This document shows positions 11,593-59,589 of a DNA stretch of 64,000 bases, one piece after another. The notes under the pieces were generated by a model. It ran no database searches, was not told where the DNA came from, and saw nothing but the letters and a program-made list of their open reading frames with translations. The position numbers were made by a program, and so were the translations under genes. This DNA is from a virus: the IMG/VR virus record IMGVR_UViG_3300018080_000167, positions 1 through 64,000 of that record. One strand, 5' to 3'. How positions within the stretch are numbered: the first letter of the stretch is position 1; every line of letters begins with the position of its first letter.

Positions 11593-11802
11593 TTATTTTA
11601 ATAGTAGTGTCCAAAAAATAACGCCCATAAACAAAAAAGATAACAAGCAGCCAACTAAAGCCTCTCCGTCTGCATCGTCTTTATCAATAAATATATCTTC
11701 TAATTCTGATATATTAAAAATGCGTGACAAAAAAAATATGGCAAGCATTATACCAGACAATGCATGTATGAACCCAACTACAATAAGAATTGTTGTGATC
11801 AT
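11593..11802 (-). CDS. Small two-helix membrane protein
   Basis: 69 aa with two hydrophobic helices (about residues 3-27 and 48-67) separated by an acidic loop (EDIFIDKDDADGE). Its stop region is near the MazG-like gene and its start overlaps the helicase stop. Holin-like in size, but nothing else supports that. Confidence 0.6.
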   Translation of the reverse strand: MITTILIVVGFIHALSGIMLAIFFLSRIFNISELEDIFIDKDDADGEALVGCLLSFLFMGVIFWTLLLK

Positions 11803-14267
11803 TTTTCTACTCCGAAATAATCTAAAATAAAATCTCTTTTGTCCTTGGCTCTTACAAATCGTTGCATTATTTCAAGTTTGTGCAGCTTTTCTTTTTTGCG
11901 ACTTTCGCTTAAATCAAAATCTATTCCAAGTTTGTCAAAACTTTTCACATTATCTGACAATACCATCACGCCTCTTTTGGGTGCTTTAAAAACGCCCCTT
12001 TTTTTCAACTCTGTTAAACATGTAGATATCTGTGCCCTTTCCAGATTGTCTTTCCCTATCATTTGTCCGAATGCACTATATGTAATTTTGTTTTCTTCTC
12101 CTACTACAAGATTATTGAGCAAATGTACATAAACTCTTTTATATAATTCAATTGATGGATGGCTAATGTCAATAAGATATTTTCTAAGGCGTATATCATT
12201 CGGATAATAAAATAGCACACATTCAGATGGCTTTCCGTCCCGCCCTGCGCGTCCCACTTCTTGGTAATACGCCTCTATAGAGCCTGGAATTGTATAATGC
12301 AAAATGTGTCGTATATTGCTCTTGTCGATGCCCATACCTATTGCAATTGTTCCCACGATACAGGAAATATCATTATCCATAAAAAGCTCTTGTGTTTTCT
12401 GTCTGTCCTCTTTTTTCATATCTGCGTGATATGGCAACGAAAAATCATCTATATGATAATTTTTTTTAACCCTTTCATTTATTTCTTTAGACAATACTTC
12501 GCAATCTTTTCTTGAGCCACAATAAACAATCATAGGTGGGAAACAACCATTCTTTTCATATATCGAATTAAAATAATTATAAAATGCATCTTTTTTATCA
12601 ATTGCGTATCCATGATATTCACATTTAAGCGTAAGCTCTGGACGATCAAAGCCACCTATTTTTATAAATGGCTCTTTCATTTCAAGATTTTTTGTGATAT
12701 CCCACACAACCCTTTCTGTGGCTGTTGCTGTTAGTGCTACAATACTTGGATCTCCTGCAAACCTCCTTATTTTTCCTATGTCACGATATTCTTTTCTGAA
12801 CTCGTGCCCCCACAGACTTACGAGATGTGCTTCATCTACCGCAATAAGCGATACATTAATCTGTGATATTATATCTTTAAAATATTCTGTGCAAAGCAAT
12901 TCTGGTGATACATATACCATTTTATATTTATTATCAATAATATCTTTAACAATCTTTCTTTTTTCTTTTTGTCCAAGAGTGCTATTTAAAAATGTAGCTG
13001 GAAGGTTACGGTTTTTTAATGCCATTACTTGATCAGCCATTAGTGAGATCAGTGGAGAAATTACAAGTGTTACGCCATCTTTAAGTAGGGCTGGCAATTG
13101 ATAAAGCATAGAATTATGTGTGATTGTAAAGTCTTCTAATAAATATCTATGATCTTTATCAAGCTGAAATCCATAATATTGTTCATTGTCAGATATTTTT
13201 TTTATAATAAATCCTGAAACTAAGGAGTTTGTTCTTTGTCGTCTTTTACAAGCTTTTTTGCGTTTTATTCTTAATGGTATTTGAGAGCAGTCGCCAGATA
13301 TATGTATCCTATTGTATAATTTATTAGGTCCGCATTTTCCATGATGTGCATGAAGTCCTAAACTTCGTGCCAAAAACAATACATTGTCAGCCATTTTGTT
13401 AGATTTACAAGAAAACTCGTATCCACTATGTCCTAAATACCCATCTGTGTCTAATAATCCAGCTAATAATTCTAATCTATCATATTTGTTTCTATAAAGA
13501 TATTGTTTTGGAATAAATTTATCGGCACACGCAATTGGTAATAATCCCAATTCTCTCAGGGCTGTTTTCAAAGGATTTTTCTGTGGTCCACGTTTTTTAT
13601 TAGAAAATCTATATGCATTACAGCCACAACTATTTTGATATATGACACATTTAATATCAAAAATATCAGCCAATTCTTGACATGCATCCTGTATCTCTAC
13701 ATCATTTTTTGTTACCGAAACACTATTGTCGTGTGCTAACGACCCATCTCCTAATATCATTCCAAGATAATATGGTGGAATTTTATATTGTTTTTCTATT
13801 TGTCCAAATTTATCAACTCCTGTTCTTATTAATTTATAAATATGTTTTTTATATTTACTCCACGTCAAATATTCTTTGATGGATACATCTATAATTGGCT
13901 TGTTGTCATATCCTTTTCCTTCGTTGGTTTTTATTAGACTGATCTTATGGTGCGGAGTAGCGCCAAATGCTTTTCCTTTATGCGGAATTATGTTGTATAT
14001 TACATCTCTTCCACGAGCAAGGGACAAGACAACTCTAGGCGTGTTGTCTGGACCCATAAGCTTGTCGCCAACTATTATATTTTCCACATTTTTTATAGAG
14101 CCATCATACATTATAACTTTTGTTCCAGCCGGATGGCATTTTCCCCCACCTGTCGGCATTACTGCGAGCGTATCTCTGTTTTCCATAATGTTTTTAATTG
14201 TTTCTTCTTGTCCTGGACGGAAAGAGTCGAAACCAAAATGTTTTTTCAATGCTTTTTTTAAGTCCAT
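11799..14267 (-). CDS. recQ: RecQ-family DNA helicase interrupted by an intein
   Basis: 822 aa precursor; removal of the 342-aa intein leaves a 480-aa 3'-5' helicase. Host protein motifs: FRPGQEETIKNIM (motif 0), PTGGGK-S (Walker A, split by the intein), VISPLISLMADQV, AVDEAHLVSLWGH (DEAH), ALTATATERV, GTIAIGMGIDKSN and YYQEVGRAGRDG (motif VI). The C-terminus ends soon after KRDFILDYFGVEK; the four Cys of the usual RecQ zinc domain are absent, though the RDFILDYF helix remains, and there is no HRDC domain. It probably unwinds recombination or fork intermediates. Confidence 0.9.
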   Translation of the reverse strand: MDLKKALKKHFGFDSFRPGQEETIKNIMENRDTLAVMPTGGGKCHPAGTKVIMYDGSIKNVENIIVGDKLMGPDNTPRVVLSLARGRDVIYNIIPHKGKAFGATPHHKISLIKTNEGKGYDNKPIIDVSIKEYLTWSKYKKHIYKLIRTGVDKFGQIEKQYKIPPYYLGMILGDGSLAHDNSVSVTKNDVEIQDACQELADIFDIKCVIYQNSCGCNAYRFSNKKRGPQKNPLKTALRELGLLPIACADKFIPKQYLYRNKYDRLELLAGLLDTDGYLGHSGYEFSCKSNKMADNVLFLARSLGLHAHHGKCGPNKLYNRIHISGDCSQIPLRIKRKKACKRRQRTNSLVSGFIIKKISDNEQYYGFQLDKDHRYLLEDFTITHNSMLYQLPALLKDGVTLVISPLISLMADQVMALKNRNLPATFLNSTLGQKEKRKIVKDIIDNKYKMVYVSPELLCTEYFKDIISQINVSLIAVDEAHLVSLWGHEFRKEYRDIGKIRRFAGDPSIVALTATATERVVWDITKNLEMKEPFIKIGGFDRPELTLKCEYHGYAIDKKDAFYNYFNSIYEKNGCFPPMIVYCGSRKDCEVLSKEINERVKKNYHIDDFSLPYHADMKKEDRQKTQELFMDNDISCIVGTIAIGMGIDKSNIRHILHYTIPGSIEAYYQEVGRAGRDGKPSECVLFYYPNDIRLRKYLIDISHPSIELYKRVYVHLLNNLVVGEENKITYSAFGQMIGKDNLERAQISTCLTELKKRGVFKAPKRGVMVLSDNVKSFDKLGIDFDLSESRKKEKLHKLEIMQRFVRAKDKRDFILDYFGVEK
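13113..14138 (-). mobile_element. Intein with LAGLIDADG-type homing endonuclease, in the RecQ Walker A
   Basis: Residues 44-385 of the helicase. It starts with Cys (CHPAGTKVIMYDG, splice block A), has a block-B-like ATPHHKISL, two LAGLIDADG-like motifs (LGMILGDGSL and LLAGLLDTDGYL about 100 residues apart) and ends YLLEDFTITHN before Ser (His-Asn then nucleophile). All residues needed for splicing are visible. Insertion between Lys and Ser of GGGKS disables ATP binding until splicing occurs, the classic conserved-site choice of inteins. Confidence 0.92.
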
Positions 14268-29948: not shown

Positions 29949-30620
29949 TTAATAGTTTTCGGCCTCTTCTCTTGTCATAAAAAAATGAATACCGTGTGTA
30001 CAAGTTTTCCGTATATCCGTATCGAAGTGATCCGCATAGACCGTTTCACCCTCTTTGTACACTACACCCGTATCATATAATCCGCACCCATTGCCCTCGA
30101 TTACCTTCACGTATTCAGCCCTACATTTTCTTGAAGTGGGCACTGATATGCGGGCCGCCTCGGCCGGAATACGAATCTTTATGACACCCCCCCTTACGGC
30201 CTTGTATGCGATAAAACTGCCCTCCTCCGGGCATACCGCGTACGGTGAAAATTTGCAGCCATCAATATTCGCGCCCCACAAATCCGCGCGCCGCAAATCC
30301 GCGTCCCGCAAATTCGCGCCCTGTAAATCCGCGCGCCGCAAATCCGCGTCCCGCAAATTCGCGCCCTGTAAATCCGCGCGCCGCAAATCCGCGCCCCACA
30401 AAGCCGCATCCCGCAAGTCCGCGCCCCACAAAGCCGCATCCCGCAAGTCCGCGCCCCGCAAATCCGCGTCCCGCAAATTCACACCCCACAAATCCGCGTT
30501 CCGCAAATCCACGTACCGCAAATCCGCGTCCCGCAAATCCGCGCGCCGCAAATCCGCGCCCTGCAAATTCGCACCCTGCAAGTCCGCGCCCCTTTTAATT
30601 TCATAGCCTTTTACGTTCAT
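29949..30620 (-). CDS. Pentapeptide-repeat protein with DUF5758-like C-terminus
   Basis: 223 aa. About 22 consecutive A(D/N)LxX pentapeptides (residues about 10-118) should form a right-handed beta helix like those of Qnr/MfpA DNA mimics. The C-terminal part (FIAYKAV, VIKIRIPAEAARISV, RKCRAEYVKVIEG, GIHFFMTREEAENY) follows DUF5758, often paired with pentapeptide repeats in phages. The coding region is far richer in GC than its neighbours, so it may be a recent transfer, partly explained by the repeats. Confidence 0.85.
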   Translation of the reverse strand: MNVKGYEIKRGADLQGANLQGADLRRADLRDADLRYVDLRNADLWGVNLRDADLRGADLRDAALWGADLRDAALWGADLRRADLQGANLRDADLRRADLQGANLRDADLRRADLWGANIDGCKFSPYAVCPEEGSFIAYKAVRGGVIKIRIPAEAARISVPTSRKCRAEYVKVIEGNGCGLYDTGVVYKEGETVYADHFDTDIRKTCTHGIHFFMTREEAENY

Positions 30621-33320: not shown

Positions 33321-33470
33321 AACCGTCATATGACACTTTCCAACCGTCATATGACACTTTCTGAACCGTCGTGTGACATTTTCCAACCGTCATATGACAC
33401 TTTCTGAACCGTCGTGTGACACTTTCCAACCGTCATATGACACTTTCTGAACCGTCGTATGACGACTTCT
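33321..33470. repeat. Seven phased iterons (21/22-bp)
   Basis: Copies of AACCGTCATATGACACTTTC or AACCGTCGTGTGACACTTTC begin at 33321, 33342, 33364, 33385, 33407, 33428 and 33450. Spacings alternate 21 and 22 bases, so sites lie on one face of the helix; core GTCATATGAC is palindromic and from copy 2 on alternates with GTCGTGTGAC or a close variant. A degenerate copy sits at 33301-33320. Typical of an origin-binding, partition or multi-operator site; no other function is shown. Confidence 0.85.
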
Positions 33471-34166: not shown

Positions 34167-34348
34167 TATTCCTTTTCGTTAAGTTGCCTTTTAAGCTCTG
34201 CAATTTCTTGCTCAAGTTTATATACTTTTGATTTTGTATCGTTCATAATATTTATTATTGCCAACCATATTTGTGAAAAACTATCTGTAATTGCATTGCC
34301 TACTTCATAATCTTTATTAGCTCTTGGTACAGTTACTTTATTAAACAT
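34166..34348 (-). CDS. 60-aa coiled-coil protein
   Basis: MFNKVTVPRANKDYEVGNAI, then KVYKLEQEIAELKRQLNEKE. The N-terminus is not coiled. Third in the coiled-coil cluster. Function unknown. Confidence 0.65.
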   Translation of the reverse strand: MFNKVTVPRANKDYEVGNAITDSFSQIWLAIINIMNDTKSKVYKLEQEIAELKRQLNEKE

Positions 34349-34363
34349 AATGGGTCCTTTCTG

Positions 34364-34624
34364 CTACTTTTTTGCAGCCCTAAAAAAGTCATATAATGAT
34401 TCGTGTTTATCTTTATAAAAATTTTCACCATCATCAAAGAGTGGCTCAGAAGCCTCACAGCCGTCAATTAGCTCATTTTCTTTTATCGTCTCTTCCAGTA
34501 CAACATCAAACCTTTTAAGCCAATAACGCGCCTCTCCTACCGTTACACCCAAACTTTTAGCCATCTCTCGGACATTAGAACTTGCTTCCGCCAATTCTTT
34601 AATAGTTTTTTTGTTGATATCCAT
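34364..34624 (-). CDS. Small helix-turn-helix-like protein
   Basis: 86 aa. KTIKELAEASSNVREMAKSL followed by GVTVGEARYWLKRFDV gives a helix-turn-helix, then an acidic tail. The gene is directly downstream of a P1 promoter. May regulate the cluster; no family recognised. Confidence 0.6.
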   Translation of the reverse strand: MDINKKTIKELAEASSNVREMAKSLGVTVGEARYWLKRFDVVLEETIKENELIDGCEASEPLFDDGENFYKDKHESLYDFFRAAKK

Positions 34625-34639
34625 AATAATACTCCTTTC

Positions 34640-34675
34640 TACATATAATATCTACTATATTGTAATTTTTTCCTA
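34640..34675 (-). promoter_or_regulatory. P1-family promoter, copy 4
   Basis: TAGGAA (34670-34675), 19 bases, TATTAT within ATATAGTAGATATTATATGTAG. Leftward, 16 bases before the HTH gene's coding region. Confidence 0.75.
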
Positions 34676-34689
34676 ATGAATTTGAAATA

Positions 34690-35231
34690 ATTTTATTTTC
34701 TCTATTGACAGAGGGGTTCCCTTTTCTCCCTTCCCATAATTTAAGTTTATGGCGGCGGCTACCCCTTCAGGGTAAGGAGGGGGGAGCTATGCCTAACCAT
34801 TATTTTTAGCAAAAAAAGCCTAAATAAAAAAGGCGCTCGCCGATTATGAAAAAAGAGACATTTTTTGGAAAACCTATTGCTCATCGCTTCTGTAGAGCGT
34901 CGAAAGCACGGTGGCATATTATATTTTCCTACATGTTCGGGTGCTGGTTGCAAAGGGAACCAGGGAAGCAGAGCCAGCGCGCACCGTGAGAGGCTCACTA
35001 AAATCGATGGTCTCCCGCCACTCGTGGCGATATATGCCTCCCGCTGTTTCCAGCTACTAAGCAATATATTCTTTTCCATCGACACCTCTCTTTTTCCCTA
35101 AAGCTATTAACTTAAGGTACTTACTAATTAGGTAGCTTTCAAACCTTTGGTTTTTTTATTAAAGAGAGTAACCTGTCTGAAATCTCTCTAATTTAACAGC
35201 AAAGCGATTCGCTGTAAAGAGAACCTTTCTC
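34690..35231 (-). ncRNA. Candidate large structured RNA (about 540 nt)
   Basis: P1 copy 5 faces this region, which has no supported gene and is GC-richer than its AT-rich surroundings. Helices read on the minus strand: outer TCGATGG/CCATCGA (35076-35082 with 35004-35010) encloses ATATAT-TGC/GCATATAT, which encloses GCTG-GAAA-CAGC, plus CGCCA-CGAG-TGGCG. Others: AGAGAA/TTCTCT, ACAGC/GCTGT, AAAGCTA/TAGCTTT, CACGGTG/CACCGTG, CTGGTT/AACCAG, TACCC/GGGTA, CATAA/TTATG. The 3' end is uncertain. Size and phage context resemble ROOL or GOLLD RNAs, but I do not recognise either. Confidence 0.6.
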
Positions 35232-35270
35232 TATTATATAATATCTACTAAAATGCCTCTTTTATTCAAT
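35232..35270 (-). promoter_or_regulatory. P1-family promoter, copy 5
   Basis: TTGAAT (35264-35269), then TTTTAGTAGATATTATATAATAG, leftward, with no gene in the next 550 bases. It appears to drive the structured RNA. Confidence 0.75.
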
Positions 35271-35482
35271 ATTTTTTAAAATTTATTTTTTTTAATGAAA
35301 ATATTATAGAATTTATTATAAAATGTATTACTGCAAATATTAAAGGGGGGAGGGTTAAAGTGTAATTATAAAAGAAGTTATTAAGGATTGCCAATTTGGC
35401 AATTTCATCTCCAGTCGCTCTCGCTCTCTGAACACAAAAAGGTAATTATTATAAAAGTTATTAAAGTAAGTATTACTGTATA
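35271..35482. other. AT-rich gap with repeats
   Basis: No gene seen. Holds two GTATTACTG repeats (35313-35334, 35457-35481), a perfect inverted GCCAA/TTGGC near 35380 and a G-rich run AAAGGGGGGAGGG near 35345. Confidence 0.5.
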
Positions 35483-35516
35483 ACAAAAAATAAAGAAGGC
35501 GACGATTATGCCGCCC
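35483..35516 (-). terminator. Probable rho-independent terminator
   Basis: Leftward GGCG/CGCC hairpin with TTCTTTATTTTTTG tail, downstream of the three-gene unit ending at 35570. The stem is short, so strength is uncertain. Confidence 0.55.
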
Positions 35517-35569
35517 TCAATATTTTCTTGATCTTAAAAAACTATTATTATTTTGGATCAATAGAATTA

Positions 35570-35791
35570 TTATTCTTGCTGCACCCCGTTAAAACCATTA
35601 TAAATATGAACGCCCTCCTCTGTAGGTTCCCACTTCCTATAAACCTCATAGGATTGATTGCCATAGCGCACACTAGTAAAGCGTGCTACAAGCCGCCATT
35701 CGGATGCATAATGGTAATGATCAGCTAACCAAAGCAGCATTTTTTTGTCTCTTGGCTCTGCATATTTTTCAATTTCTTCTTTAATTTTCAT
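35570..35791 (-). CDS. Hypothetical 73-aa protein
   Basis: MKIKEEIEKYAEPRDKKMLL, Trp/Tyr-rich (YHYASEWRLVARFTSVRYG). Compact and probably globular. Not recognised. Last gene of the unit ended by a terminator. Confidence 0.65.
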   Translation of the reverse strand: MKIKEEIEKYAEPRDKKMLLWLADHYHYASEWRLVARFTSVRYGNQSYEVYRKWEPTEEGVHIYNGFNGVQQE

Positions 35792-49445: not shown

Positions 49446-49687
49446 ATGGAGTGCGTTGCGAAGACTGCGGAAAAGAGGTAATGTTCTCTGAACAATTGTC
49501 ATATAGGGTAACTGATGGAAAAAATGTGTGTGTTGATTGTTCGCACAAGAAAGCTCCTTGTGAAAAATGCGGGATAAGAGATAATGTTACACTTGTTGAA
49601 ATTGGATACAATTATTTTTTATTGTGTGAGCAATGTAGGGGTACTGTGTCTCATGTTGTAGCGGAGTGGTTATATGGCGACAAATAA
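49442..49687 (+). CDS. 81-aa zinc protein
   Basis: CEDCGKEVMF, CVDCSHKKAPCEKCG and LLCEQCRG: two zinc-ribbon halves. Start overlaps the previous stop by 4 bases, and its stop overlaps the RF-1-like gene start. Similar in style to the two genes before it. Confidence 0.7.
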   Translation: MNGVRCEDCGKEVMFSEQLSYRVTDGKNVCVDCSHKKAPCEKCGIRDNVTLVEIGYNYFLLCEQCRGTVSHVVAEWLYGDK

Positions 49688-50042
49688 GCGAAATAAAAAA
49701 TTGTTGTTTACTATCGGAAAAAAAGATTTTGATATTTCATATTTTTCAGGATCAGGCGCAGGAGGTCAGCATAGAAATAAACACAAAAATTGCGTAAGGC
49801 TTAAACACAAGGATTCTGGCGCTATTGCAACTGGGCAATCACATAAGAGTAAAAAGCAGAATCTTAAAGAGGCTCTTCATAATATTGTTAAAGTTGGGAA
49901 GTTTAAAATGTGGCACAGTCAAAAGGTGCGCGAGGCATTGGACGGAATAACGCTTGAAGAAAGGGTTAATAAAATGATGGAGCCTAAAAATTTGAAGATT
50001 GAAGGCAGAAATAAAGAAGGCAAGTGGGAGGAAATTGAATGA
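49674..50042 (+). CDS. RF-1-like (GGQ) peptide-release protein
   Basis: 122 aa. YFSGSGAGGQHRNKHKNC carries the universally conserved GGQ that triggers peptidyl-tRNA hydrolysis on the ribosome, followed by VRLKHKDSGAIATGQSHKSK typical of RF-1-like domains; no codon-recognition domain. The gene overlaps rtcB by 4 bases. PrfH/ArfB-like proteins paired with RtcB are known to rescue ribosomes whose rRNA or tRNA has been cut. Here it is the shortest, GGQ-only form. Confidence 0.8.
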   Translation: MATNKRNKKLLFTIGKKDFDISYFSGSGAGGQHRNKHKNCVRLKHKDSGAIATGQSHKSKKQNLKEALHNIVKVGKFKMWHSQKVREALDGITLEERVNKMMEPKNLKIEGRNKEGKWEEIE

Positions 50043-51187
50043 AATTTTATACAGAAGAAAATAAAGTTATCAAGTCTTGGTGTAACAATCCAGAAGATGG
50101 TACAATTGATCAGGCTCGTAATTTAGCGAATCTCCCATTTTTATTTAAGCACGTCGCTTTAATGCCCGACGGACATCAGGGGTACGGGATGCCAATAGGT
50201 GGCGTAATTGCTTGCAACTCAGTAGTGATTCCTAATGCTGTTGGAGTTGATATTGGCTGCGGAATGGCAGTAGTGAAGACGACATTAACAGAAATCACCA
50301 TCTCTGAATTAAAAACAATTATGTCTGGAATAAGAAAGAGGATTCCAGTTGGTTTTTCTCATCACAAAAGGATGCAAGACTTTAGCTTGATGCCAGAACT
50401 TACAGATGAGAAGATAGTAAGTGAGCAATATCTATCAGCAAGTAGGCAACTGGGCACTTTGGGTGGCGGCAATCATTTTATTGAGATACAAAAGGGGAGT
50501 GATGGACATATTTGGATTATGATACATTCGGGCTCTAGAAATTTGGGGTATAAAGTTGCGAAATATTATAATGAAATAGCCAAGGAAGCAAACAAAAAGT
50601 GGTACACACAGGTTGATCCAAAAAATGATTTGGCTTTTCTTCCTATAGATATGGATGACTGCCAAAATTATCTTAAGGAAATGGAATATTGCCTCAAGTT
50701 TGCTAAAGCTAATCGTGCATTGATGATAGAAAATATTAAGTGTGCGTTTGGAGAAGTTTTTGCAGAAATTTCTTTTGATAACTTTATTGATATTCATCAC
50801 AATTATGTTGCGATAGAAAATCATTTTGGAAAAAACGTCTGGATACATAGAAAGGGTGCGACATCTGCTAAGGAAGGACAGACAGGAATCATTCCTGGCT
50901 CACAAGGCACTAGTTCATATATAGTAAGAGGAAAGGGCAATCCAGATTCTTTCAAGTCTTGTTCACATGGAGCAGGAAGGAAGATGGGGCGCAAAGAGGC
51001 ACGAAAATCTTTAAATTTAGAAGATGAACAAAAAAAATTGGATGGTGTTATACATTCTGTCAGAAGCGAAAAAGATTTAGATGAAGCTTGTGGGGCGTAT
51101 AAAAATATAAATATTGTAATGGAAGAACAGAAGGATTTAGTAGATATTGTTATAAGGATGGAGCCGTTGGCTGTTATAAAGGGATAA
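50039..51187 (+). CDS. rtcB: RtcB RNA ligase
   Basis: 382 aa. Joins 2',3'-cyclic phosphate or 3'-phosphate RNA ends to 5'-OH with GTP and Mn. VDIGCGMAVVK, GGGNHFIEIQ, MIHSGSRNLG, IHHNYV, RKGATSA, PGSQGTSSYIV and SCSHGAGRKMGR (guanylylated His) are in the right order. Length is typical of the shorter RtcB paralogs. It is translationally coupled to the RF-1-like gene, making an RNA-repair/ribosome-rescue unit. Confidence 0.92.
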   Translation: MKFYTEENKVIKSWCNNPEDGTIDQARNLANLPFLFKHVALMPDGHQGYGMPIGGVIACNSVVIPNAVGVDIGCGMAVVKTTLTEITISELKTIMSGIRKRIPVGFSHHKRMQDFSLMPELTDEKIVSEQYLSASRQLGTLGGGNHFIEIQKGSDGHIWIMIHSGSRNLGYKVAKYYNEIAKEANKKWYTQVDPKNDLAFLPIDMDDCQNYLKEMEYCLKFAKANRALMIENIKCAFGEVFAEISFDNFIDIHHNYVAIENHFGKNVWIHRKGATSAKEGQTGIIPGSQGTSSYIVRGKGNPDSFKSCSHGAGRKMGRKEARKSLNLEDEQKKLDGVIHSVRSEKDLDEACGAYKNINIVMEEQKDLVDIVIRMEPLAVIKG

Positions 51188-56141: not shown

Positions 56142-56948
56142 ATGGACATAGTGGCGAATGGAATTATTGGAAAATGAAAACGTATTATTATTGATGATGA
56201 GGACTATGAAATAGTAAAAAATTTTAGATGGACATTAAAAAAAAGTTCGAATACGTTTTATGCTAAGTCATTTAATGGTGAGCACACAATACTTATGCAT
56301 CGTCTTATATTGGGATTAAAATTTGGAGATAAGAGAGAAGTTGATCATATCAATAGAGATGGTATTGACAATAGGAAATGTAATTTAAGAATAGTTAATA
56401 GAAATCAACAAAATCAAAATAGACGTGCTGTTAGAAATAGATGTAGCAAATATAGAGGTGTTTGTTTTGCAAAATGTGACTGTTGTAAATCTTTTAGGGC
56501 TGCGTTTAAAAAAGATGGTAAAACATTATGTGAAGTTATTTTTGCGACAGAAAAAATGGCTGCGTTATATTATGATTTAATTGCATATAAACATAATTCA
56601 AAATATAATTATTTAAACTTTAAAGATATAAAATATTATGAAATTAAAAACATTATAAGCGATGAGATTAAAAAACAGGCGGAAAGAAGCGAGATCATAA
56701 GAAAAAACAAAGGTAAGGGTAATGAAAATAATATTGGGAAAAAGCTTGTAAGTTATACTAAATACACAGGTGTTGGATATCGTAAAGAAAGAAAAAAGCC
56801 CTGGTATGCATTTTGTTACATAGATGGCAAAAGGAAGAAACACATAGGGTCATATGCAACAGAGGCAGAGGCAGCTATGGCGTTTGATGAATATGTAATA
56901 AATAATAAAGTAGAGAAATATTTGCAACATTTGAATTGTGGGAGGTAA
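56142..56948 (+). pseudogene. HNH-AP2 homing endonuclease, interrupted by an in-frame TGA
   Basis: Start ATG has TAGGAGTGTTG. After 11 codons (MDIVANGIIGK) a TGA at 56175-56177 stops the frame, which then runs open to 56948. Translated through: RIIIDDEDYEIVKNFRW, then MHRLILGL, VDHINRDGIDNRKCNLRIVN (HNH), and two AP2-like DNA-binding repeats (YRGVCF...FRAAFKKDGK and YTGVGY...WYAFCYIDGK). TGA is a true stop elsewhere here. So a nonsense mutation, read-through, or a sequence error. An internal start at 56295 lacks a ribosome site. Confidence 0.75.
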
Positions 56949-56949
56949 T

Positions 56950-59589
56950 GTGAAATTTACAGAAAACGGAATGAGGCTACTGAGGCGAAGGTATTTGAGA
57001 AAAGACAATAATGGAAATGTTGTTGAAACACCAGAAGAGCTTTTGGACAGGGTGAGCAAATGTCTTTCGCATTCAGAAATTTTTTATGGCGGTAAAACTA
57101 AAAGAAAAAAATGGTATAATATTATTAAAAATTCTTTGAACAATATGGAAATAATGCCATCAACCCCCATTCTTTTTAATGCTAGAGATCCTGAAATAGA
57201 AAAACCAGGGGTACTGTATGCTTGTTTTTTTGTTCCAATGTCTGATTCTATTCAGGGTATTTATTCGTGCCTACACCTTTGTTCTTCTATTTTTAGCGCG
57301 GGTGGCGGCATAGGGACAGATGTGTCGTGTTTGCGTGAAAATGGGGCTGATATAGGTAATGGTAGGGGCGTTAGTACAGGACCAATATCATTTTTGAAAG
57401 TATTTGATGCTTCGTCTGATGCGATTTTACATGGGGGGGTCAGAAGGGCTGCCGCACTTGCATCGATGGATGTTTCACATCCAGACATAGAGCATTTTTT
57501 GCGTGTTAAAGGGGAAAACTTACAAGAAATTAATAGACTTTTGGCAATTGTTAATTCTTCTAAAGATGGCATATTGAAAAAATATATTCAAGCTGAAATT
57601 TCTAAGTTGCAGCAACTTAGTCATTTTAATCTTTCTGTTAAGATCACAGATAAGTTTATGGATGCTGTAAGAAATAATAAAGATTGGGAATTAATTTCTC
57701 CACATACGGGAAGCGTTGTTAAAACAATTTCTGCCGCGAAATTATTTAACGACATTTGTAGGTGTGCACATAATTCTGCAGAACCTGGGGTTATTTTTAT
57801 AGATGAAATTAATAGGCATAACCCAATGCCAAACATTGGACCAATTAATGGAACCAATGCTTGTTCTGAGGTTCCGCTTCATGATTATAATGCATGTAAT
57901 TTGATATCTGTTAATTTAAATAAGTGCTTAGCTAACGAGGAGTTTTCTTTTGATGAACTGAAAAGAATCAGTAGGATAGCGCTTCGTTGCGGAGAAAATG
58001 TAATAGATGTTTCTTCATATCTTGATGAAAAGATAGAGAATATTGTTAAAAATAGTCGTGGGATTGGCGTTGGCGTTACTGGTTTTGCAGACGTTCTTGT
58101 AAGGCTTGGAATACCTTACGATAGCAAAAGAGCTAGAGATTTTGTTCGTAAAATAACAAAGGTATTAACAGACTCATGTCGTGAAGAGTCAAAAGAGCTT
58201 GCAAAAGAAAGAGGTGTTTTTAATAATTATAAAGGATCTCTAATGGAAAAAAAGGGATTTGTTGTTAGAAATGCATTTGTCAGCGCTCTGCAGCCTACAG
58301 GATCTACTGCGATACTCGCTGGGGCATCTCAGTCAATAGAGCCATACTTTTCATTGTTTTACACTAGAAATACTCACGAAGGCGATGTGTATGTTGAGCT
58401 TAATGAAATTTTTATTGATAAACTTAAAAAAATGAATATTGATACAGAATGTGTTGTTAATGAGCTAAAGAAAGGTAAGCAGCTTTGTGATATTGATATT
58501 ATCCCAGATGAAATAAAAAGAGTTTTTGTTACATCTCATTTAATTTCAGCAGAGGGACATGTCAGAATGCAAGCTGCGGCTCAAGAAAATATAGATTTAA
58601 GCATTTCTAAAACTGTTAATTTACCATCTAATGCAACAGTAAACGATGTAAAAAATGTTTATCTGTTAGCAGAAAAACTCGGTTGTAAGGGGTGTACTGT
58701 ATATAGGGATGGCTCAAGAGAGGGTGTTTTGCATTCTGTAGTCGAGAAAGAAGAGAGCGATGGTAATGAAGAGTTGCGAGACTTTTTGTATAATAAATTT
58801 GTCAAAGAGGGGCTTACGGCTAAAGAGATAGCCGACATTCTTGATGTTTCTGAATCACAAGTTTTTTCAAAGCTTAAAAGGTTTTGTATTAAGAAAAGTG
58901 ATAAAAACACTACAATTTCTGCCAAAAAAATAAAACTTACTCAATCACTAAAGGAAATTATAATAGCGAATCTTCTTGTTGGTAATTCTAAAATAAACAC
59001 TGTTGAGAGTCAGTCGTCTTATAGACAAGTAAGTGATCACTGTGTTTATACTAAGAATATTCGCAAAAAATTCTTGGACAACGGCATAAACTGTTCTGAG
59101 ATTATGACAATTGTGACAGATAAAATATATTATTATTTTGACACTGTATTCAATAGTAATATTTATAATTTACCAGCAGATAATGATGTGGTAGATAAGT
59201 TAAGCAGCGACGAGATTGATACGTTATTGACAAGAACTTTTGTTAGACACCTTTTTCTTGTTGGCGGAGTTCGTACAGGAAGAGGTGGAATTAAGTTTTG
59301 TTCTAAACACGGAAACTATAATAACTTAAAGAAAATTATGCAGCTTGTTGAGAAGGAGCTCGGTGTAGAATTCAGCTATAAGCAAAAGGAAAACAACAAT
59401 GGAATTGTTTATATTCCTAAGAGGTGTGCGGAAGACTTTTATAATTTTATAGAGTCTGGAGAGCAAATCAATAAGATTAATTCAATACAAAGCAAGGCTA
59501 CTTGTCCAGAATGTGGTGGTATGCTTAATTTTTGTGAAGGCTGTAAGACATGCGCCTCCTGCGGCTGGTCTGCTTGTAGTATTGGCTGA
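56950..59589 (+). CDS. nrdJ: Class II (B12-dependent) ribonucleotide reductase with inserted domain
   Basis: 879 aa from GTG after GGGAGGTAAT; a typical NrdJ is about 650-750 aa. It reduces ribonucleotides using adenosylcobalamin. MPSTPILFNAR, GGGIGTDVSCLRENGADIG, NACSEVPL, NLISVNLNKC, QPTGSTAILAGASQSIEPYF, YLLAEKLGCKGCTVYRDGSR and the C-terminal CPECGGMLNFCEGCKTCASCGWSAC are present. Between about residues 600 and 850 an extra region has an HTH (KEIADILDVSESQVFSKLKR) and a LAGLIDADG-like FVRHLFLVGGVRTGRGGIKF. It provides dNTPs when the host lacks suitable enzymes. Confidence 0.9.
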   Translation: MKFTENGMRLLRRRYLRKDNNGNVVETPEELLDRVSKCLSHSEIFYGGKTKRKKWYNIIKNSLNNMEIMPSTPILFNARDPEIEKPGVLYACFFVPMSDSIQGIYSCLHLCSSIFSAGGGIGTDVSCLRENGADIGNGRGVSTGPISFLKVFDASSDAILHGGVRRAAALASMDVSHPDIEHFLRVKGENLQEINRLLAIVNSSKDGILKKYIQAEISKLQQLSHFNLSVKITDKFMDAVRNNKDWELISPHTGSVVKTISAAKLFNDICRCAHNSAEPGVIFIDEINRHNPMPNIGPINGTNACSEVPLHDYNACNLISVNLNKCLANEEFSFDELKRISRIALRCGENVIDVSSYLDEKIENIVKNSRGIGVGVTGFADVLVRLGIPYDSKRARDFVRKITKVLTDSCREESKELAKERGVFNNYKGSLMEKKGFVVRNAFVSALQPTGSTAILAGASQSIEPYFSLFYTRNTHEGDVYVELNEIFIDKLKKMNIDTECVVNELKKGKQLCDIDIIPDEIKRVFVTSHLISAEGHVRMQAAAQENIDLSISKTVNLPSNATVNDVKNVYLLAEKLGCKGCTVYRDGSREGVLHSVVEKEESDGNEELRDFLYNKFVKEGLTAKEIADILDVSESQVFSKLKRFCIKKSDKNTTISAKKIKLTQSLKEIIIANLLVGNSKINTVESQSSYRQVSDHCVYTKNIRKKFLDNGINCSEIMTIVTDKIYYYFDTVFNSNIYNLPADNDVVDKLSSDEIDTLLTRTFVRHLFLVGGVRTGRGGIKFCSKHGNYNNLKKIMQLVEKELGVEFSYKQKENNNGIVYIPKRCAEDFYNFIESGEQINKINSIQSKATCPECGGMLNFCEGCKTCASCGWSACSIG

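Follow-up and report, generated by a model that had tools for sequence, protein, structure and literature searches.

The question raised by this locus is what a phage would transcribe from one of its own promoters when no credible gene stands close behind it. The window, by which we mean the whole stretch of DNA analysed, covers bases 1-64,000 of an IMG/VR virus record that is 74,773 bases long. It comes from an uncultivated, AT-rich tailed phage (GC 33.4% over the window), among whose genes a ribonucleotide reductase, RtcB and an intein-bearing helicase are recognisable. A terminase-like protein is encoded at 62-70 kb; among its distant INPHARED matches by tblastn are proteins annotated as large terminase subunits. 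The same stretch holds genes that, judged by their position and size, are probably those of the portal and capsid. Genes point leftward up to about 36.4 kb and rightward beyond it, and the GC skew flips there (about 36.3-36.8 kb). The only tRNA genes of the phage, for tRNA-Arg and tRNA-Ile, are located at 26.1-26.2 kb, about 8.5 kb from the locus described here.

Several other features of the phage were observed. Close to the skew switch, an iteron-like, non-coding array (33,321-33,463) in which AACCGTCATATGACACTTTCC / AACCGTCGTGTGACACTTTCTG recur every 21-22 nt with palindromic cores is a candidate origin or operator array. The intein (11,799-14,267) carries Hint and LAGLIDADG domains and interrupts the helicase, and the large subunit of the ribonucleotide reductase (56,938-59,589) carries additional sequence at its C terminus with weak matches to HTH/HNH-associated domains. 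At 49,674-51,187 a short release-factor-like (PrfH-like) phage gene is directly followed by the RtcB RNA ligase; the bacterial RtcB2-PrfH pair was reported to protect E. coli against colicin E3 (PMC9223846).

A phage-class promoter faces a unit without a credible gene

The unit is composed of the following features.

35,495-35,518, minus strand: terminator-like hairpin and T-run (9-bp stem, 6 GC pairs, T-rich tail), ending the upstream leftward gene and insulating the unit
35,365-35,394, minus strand: sigma-70-like promoter TTGGCA-18-TATAAT (11/12 consensus positions, the best in 33.0-37.5 kb)
35,236-35,250, minus strand: phage-class promoter core TAGTAGATATTATAT, exact match
34,706-35,235, minus strand: candidate structured non-coding RNA of about 530 nt, ends inferred (MFE -165.1 kcal/mol, z = -3.86; non-coding codon statistics)
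34,643-34,657, minus strand: next phage-class promoter copy, exact, 19 nt ahead of the gene that it serves (34,364-34,624)

The core TAGTAGATATTATAT occurs in five exact copies in the window and, at up to three mismatches, yields 21 matches compared to 7.0 expected. In an alignment of eight promoter sites, the TAGTAGATATT core is invariant and is accompanied by an A/T tract and a TTGgAA-like box. With a leave-one-out matrix derived from the seven other sites, the site at 35,250 ranks right after those seven among 149,546 positions, which substantiates the leftward-facing phage promoter that a sequence-only reading had placed here. Six of the seven other sites have a called gene 13-54 nt downstream and the seventh (456) a 57-aa ORF about 67 nt downstream; about 610 nt (612) separate the promoter at 35,236 from the next credible gene start. 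At up to two mismatches the motif is absent from two related phage records (G002 and G003, see below), so the promoter looks specific to the present phage. Since the same promoter class also serves recombination and regulatory genes, e.g., the gene of an SbcC-like ATPase, which it precedes, we infer that the candidate RNA is expressed alongside the phage's middle genes; leftward transcription would thus probably take place in mid-infection.

The terminator-like hairpin upstream is a pattern match only; the region holds three such patterns, compared to 3.0 expected when it is shuffled. Judged from its sequence, the sigma-70-like promoter is possibly an early start that would give a longer transcript. 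Downstream of the candidate RNA lies the gene at 34,364-34,624 (86 aa, HTH-like), and a pattern search found nothing terminator-like where the candidate RNA ends or between there and this gene.

Codon statistics and base composition of the region

The longest ORF of the region (34,759-35,085, minus strand) has a GC content by codon position of about 0.46/0.46/0.49-0.50; third-position GC is clearly lower in most credible genes of the phage. Its codon-usage score of about -0.18 falls within the range of spurious ORFs, the plus-strand ORF of the region scores -0.32, and searches with the minus-strand ORF against Pfam, NCBIfam and by tblastn (INPHARED and relatives included) returned no match. 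We rejected this 107-aa ORF as a gene because of its flat codon-position GC and its score. The region thus contains no conserved or codon-biased reading frame, and the initial impression that it lacks a credible gene is borne out.

The GC content over 34,690-35,235 is 0.423 compared to 0.334 for the window. The marked GC enrichment initially ascribed to the whole region applies to its 3' two-thirds (34,708-35,090, GC 0.475), while the first 140 nt of the candidate RNA (35,095-35,235) have a GC content of 0.326. This GC island begins with the core domain described below and extends to the closing helix's 3' strand, and the flanks on both sides of the unit have a GC content of 0.17-0.25.

A predicted stable core, pairable ends and a competing fold

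Folding of the candidate RNA gave the following elements.

34,986-35,090, minus strand: core domain, a three-way junction enclosed by the GAGAGGU/GCCUCUC helix, its arms capped by GAAA and CGAG (34 pairs, 3 G-U)
35,216-35,234, minus strand: end-closing helix, 5' strand (AUAGAG, GGUUCUCUUU), pair probabilities 0.94 and 0.97
34,708-34,724, minus strand: end-closing helix, 3' strand (AAAGGGAACC, CUCUGU), pair probabilities 0.94 and 0.97
34,848-34,883, minus strand: 3' strands of a rival long-range stem, pairing with 35,058-35,097 (probabilities 0.84-0.86 in the full-length ensemble)

The core of 105 nt comprises the domain picked out in the sequence-only reading plus the outer GAGAGGU/GCCUCUC helix. 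All helices named in that reading (TCGATGG/CCATCGA, ATATAT-TGC/GC-ATATAT, GCTG-GAAA-CAGC and CGCCA-CGAG-TGGCG) are present and form the minimum free energy structure both of the 79-nt piece that holds them (z = -4.57) and of the 105-nt core. The core has an MFE of -41.0 kcal/mol with z = -5.06 on the minus strand compared to -3.25 on the plus strand, in agreement with the earlier suggestion that the structured strand is the one transcribed from the promoter. Against 1000 independent shuffles (mean -24.0, best -35.5) the z-score was -5.6. When 105-nt windows were folded genome-wide, the core was the most stable except for a GC-rich pentapeptide-like gene at 29.9-30.6 kb. This gene (29,949-30,620) encodes a pentapeptide-repeat-like protein and reaches a GC content of 0.59 despite the AT-rich phage.

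Both the whole RNA and the core are more stable than composition-matched shuffles, and the sequence downstream of the gene-poor promoter copy 456, folded as a control, gave z = 0.06. In genome-wide 200-nt windows the region is mildly outstanding (z about -2 to -2.5). Folded on their own, the pieces outside the core (35,095-35,235, 34,880-34,985 and 34,706-34,845) are no more stable than shuffles, so the many nested helices proposed at the outset are only as good as the z-score of the whole RNA. Individually significant are only the core of about 105 nt and the closing helix; the proposal of a large RNA with many helices depends on the whole-RNA value of z = -3.9. The closing helix joins the 5' with the 3' end over 16 bp (AUAGAG/CUCUGU and GGUUCUCUUU/AAAGGGAACC). 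For the two 30-nt ends the duplex energy is -19.8, a value equalled in 2 of 2000 shuffles and in 12 of 3714 equally spaced genome pairs.

In the full-length MFE structure, the long-range stem (35,097-35,058 with 34,883-34,848) displaces the core. Forcing the core gave -163.8 compared to -165.1 kcal/mol, a cost of 1.3 kcal/mol, and the two folds are near-isoenergetic. Modelled on the nascent RNA, the mean pair probability of the core is 0.90-0.94 until about 34,890 has been transcribed and 0.25-0.39 thereafter. On this modelling, the core would form first and may be trapped, and a functional switch between the two folds is possible.

Searches for relatives

Searches based on the terminase gave four records whose terminases are 53-57% identical: G002 (150.9 kb), G003 (95.9 kb), G014 (79.8 kb) and a 74-kb contig, G013:C3; additionally, a 5.6-kb fragment carries an identical terminase. 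The candidate RNA is absent from all four by blastn and covariance model. G014 and G003 match the window almost solely from about 47 kb onward, so only G002, the one relative with genes of the corresponding left arm, tests the homologous position. A syntenic structured gap was also sought in G002 and G003 using gene calls based on codon usage, and none of the large gaps found could be equated with the candidate RNA.

Searches of INPHARED by blastn (at 1e-5 and 10) and of PLSDB (at 1) returned nothing or chance matches of 20-30 nt. Scanning IMG/VR for GCNGGAAACNGCGGGAGRC gave seven matches with little in common beyond the motif itself, and a scan that kept only the junction and loop letters gave two, neither with a core-like fold. 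A covariance model of the core (R1), whose reach is limited because it was built from one sequence, found only the window itself over 438 kb of loci and nothing in G002, G003, G013, G014, other records or 285 genomes of G013's phylum. These searches thus gave no homologue in which covariation of the base pairs could be assessed. Missing matches in the databases searched do not prove that the candidate RNA is unique.

The relatives yielded some observations of their own. G003 (C1:3804-6743) and G014 (C1:22888-24602) each contain a long stretch in which no ORF is long or codon-biased, with no Rfam family above the gathering score, and G003 also carries a full-length tmRNA gene (L026:16606-16970, 133 bits) amid many tRNAs. 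The 74-kb contig (L042, QNCM01000003.1) was binned into a Candidatus Omnitrophota assembly of the Guay9 scaffold set, which either hints weakly at the host group or reflects a mistake in binning.

What the locus may encode and how it may act

What the computations show is a promoter dedicated to the unit, a lack of coding signal, a very stable 105-nt three-way-junction core, ends that are able to pair and a preference for the minus strand. We propose that the locus encodes a stand-alone phage structured RNA of about 0.5 kb, of an undescribed class and acting in trans, and put the probability of this reading at roughly 0.55. The existence of a structured RNA is likely, and its mechanism may run as follows. 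The core would fold first while the RNA emerges, and the closing helix would then clamp the ends, perhaps after trimming, which is suggested because no terminator is seen at the 3' end. The folded RNA itself would work in trans, perhaps by serving a protein of the host or the phage as scaffold or decoy, perhaps as a self-assembling ornate RNA in the manner of ROOL and GOLLD; none of the three modes is favoured over the others.

Alternatively, the transcript from 35,235 could run into the 86-aa HTH-like gene and its neighbours as a cis-acting structured leader whose fold controls their transcription or translation. The gene is on the same strand with no terminator-like site in between, and the two near-isoenergetic folds, whose balance shifts once transcription passes about 34,880, are switch-like. 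However, this gene has its own exact promoter copy 19 nt before its start, the closing helix stops before that promoter, and about 80 nt of DNA with 17% GC separate the fold from the gene. A leader role is therefore the less likely reading, and we regard it as improbable. We give slightly less credence to an RNA associated with a replication origin, in which promoter and stable transcript help to start phage DNA replication and the fold protects or positions the primer. Such a role is conceivable because the switch of GC-skew sign and gene direction (about 36.3-36.8 kb) and the iteron-like palindromic repeats (33,321-33,463) are nearby; yet each lies 1-2 kb away from the RNA, no motif of a known origin was recognised, and a strongly self-folded RNA would presumably be a poor R-loop primer.

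The GC island within an AT-rich phage, the lack of relatives in four related phage records and the shuffle-like folding outside the core would also suit a mosaic remnant, i.e., foreign higher-GC DNA from a decayed gene or mobile element that came to lie behind a duplicated phage promoter and whose structure has no function. A core with z of about -5 and a strand preference, together with an end-closing helix, would not be expected of decayed DNA, and family and tblastn searches did not find a protein remnant; we consider this explanation about as unlikely as an origin-associated RNA. Less probable still is an mRNA for a small protein, translated from the AUG at 35,079 via a ribosome-binding site held in the core. 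GAGAGGUG does precede this AUG at the appropriate distance and the frame is open for 107 codons, but its GC is flat by codon position, its codon score lies among those of spurious ORFs, its translation contains no aspartate, no match exists in Pfam, NCBIfam, INPHARED or the relatives, and the GC-rich tract extends past the stop codon.

Returning to the trans-acting structured RNA, a new large RNA class is plausible, though a single sequence stands behind it. More tentatively, and with odds that we place somewhat against it, this would be a class of large phage RNA that has no kinship with ROOL, GOLLD or OLE, abundant in infection and built on a three-way-junction core, its ends clamped. It would act through its fold, by self-assembly or protein binding, or by changing over from core to long-range stem and back. 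The 105-nt core would then be a compact piece that is easy to make and probe, and phage-promoter maps combined with GC islands in AT-rich genomes can point towards RNA genes that have no known relatives.

Comparison with known RNA classes

At the gathering score, Rfam models gave nothing relevant to the candidate RNA over the window. With permissive filters and E <= 10 over 34,300-35,600 there was likewise nothing relevant, the best hit in the RNA region being a chance-level sRNA match far below its gathering score, and no model of a self-splicing intron, known ribozyme or riboswitch matched there. Because no relevant match appears even at E <= 10, the candidate is not detectably ROOL, GOLLD or OLE, as had been supposed of the first two from the fold.

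T4 oriF and oriG are examples of transcription-primed phage replication origins. With these the locus shares a phage-class promoter without an adjacent gene, 1-2 kb from a skew switch; it differs in that its candidate RNA is GC-rich and predicted to be strongly self-folded with paired ends. OLE RNA is a bacterial RNA associated with extremophiles (PMC12286853). It resembles the candidate as a large ornate RNA of similar length, but the candidate comes from a phage and did not match the OLE model of Rfam.

ROOL and GOLLD are RNAs of phages and prophages that are often found near tRNA islands and form RNA-only nanocages, and these elaborate large RNAs remain unexplained, their function not being known (PMC12286853). 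Like the candidate, ROOL is encoded by phages or prophages, measures about 0.4-0.7 kb and has extensive predicted structure without an associated protein gene (PMC12286853); unlike it, the candidate lacks an Rfam match at either threshold and a location near a tRNA island, a frequent but not obligatory feature of ROOL. GOLLD is also a large phage-encoded RNA and is induced in infection (PMC12286853), but it often exceeds 800 nt compared to about 530 nt here, and the candidate neither matches its Rfam model, which describes a conserved 3' region, nor has a tRNA in or beside it. Of the likeness to ROOL and GOLLD noted at first sight, size and phage origin hold, whereas their Rfam models do not match it and the two tRNA genes are about 8.5 kb distant. 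Since the likeness is one of size and setting only, the candidate should be filed as an orphan and not as a member of either class. If it is indeed a further large RNA unrelated to these, phages would seem to have come up with such RNAs more than once.
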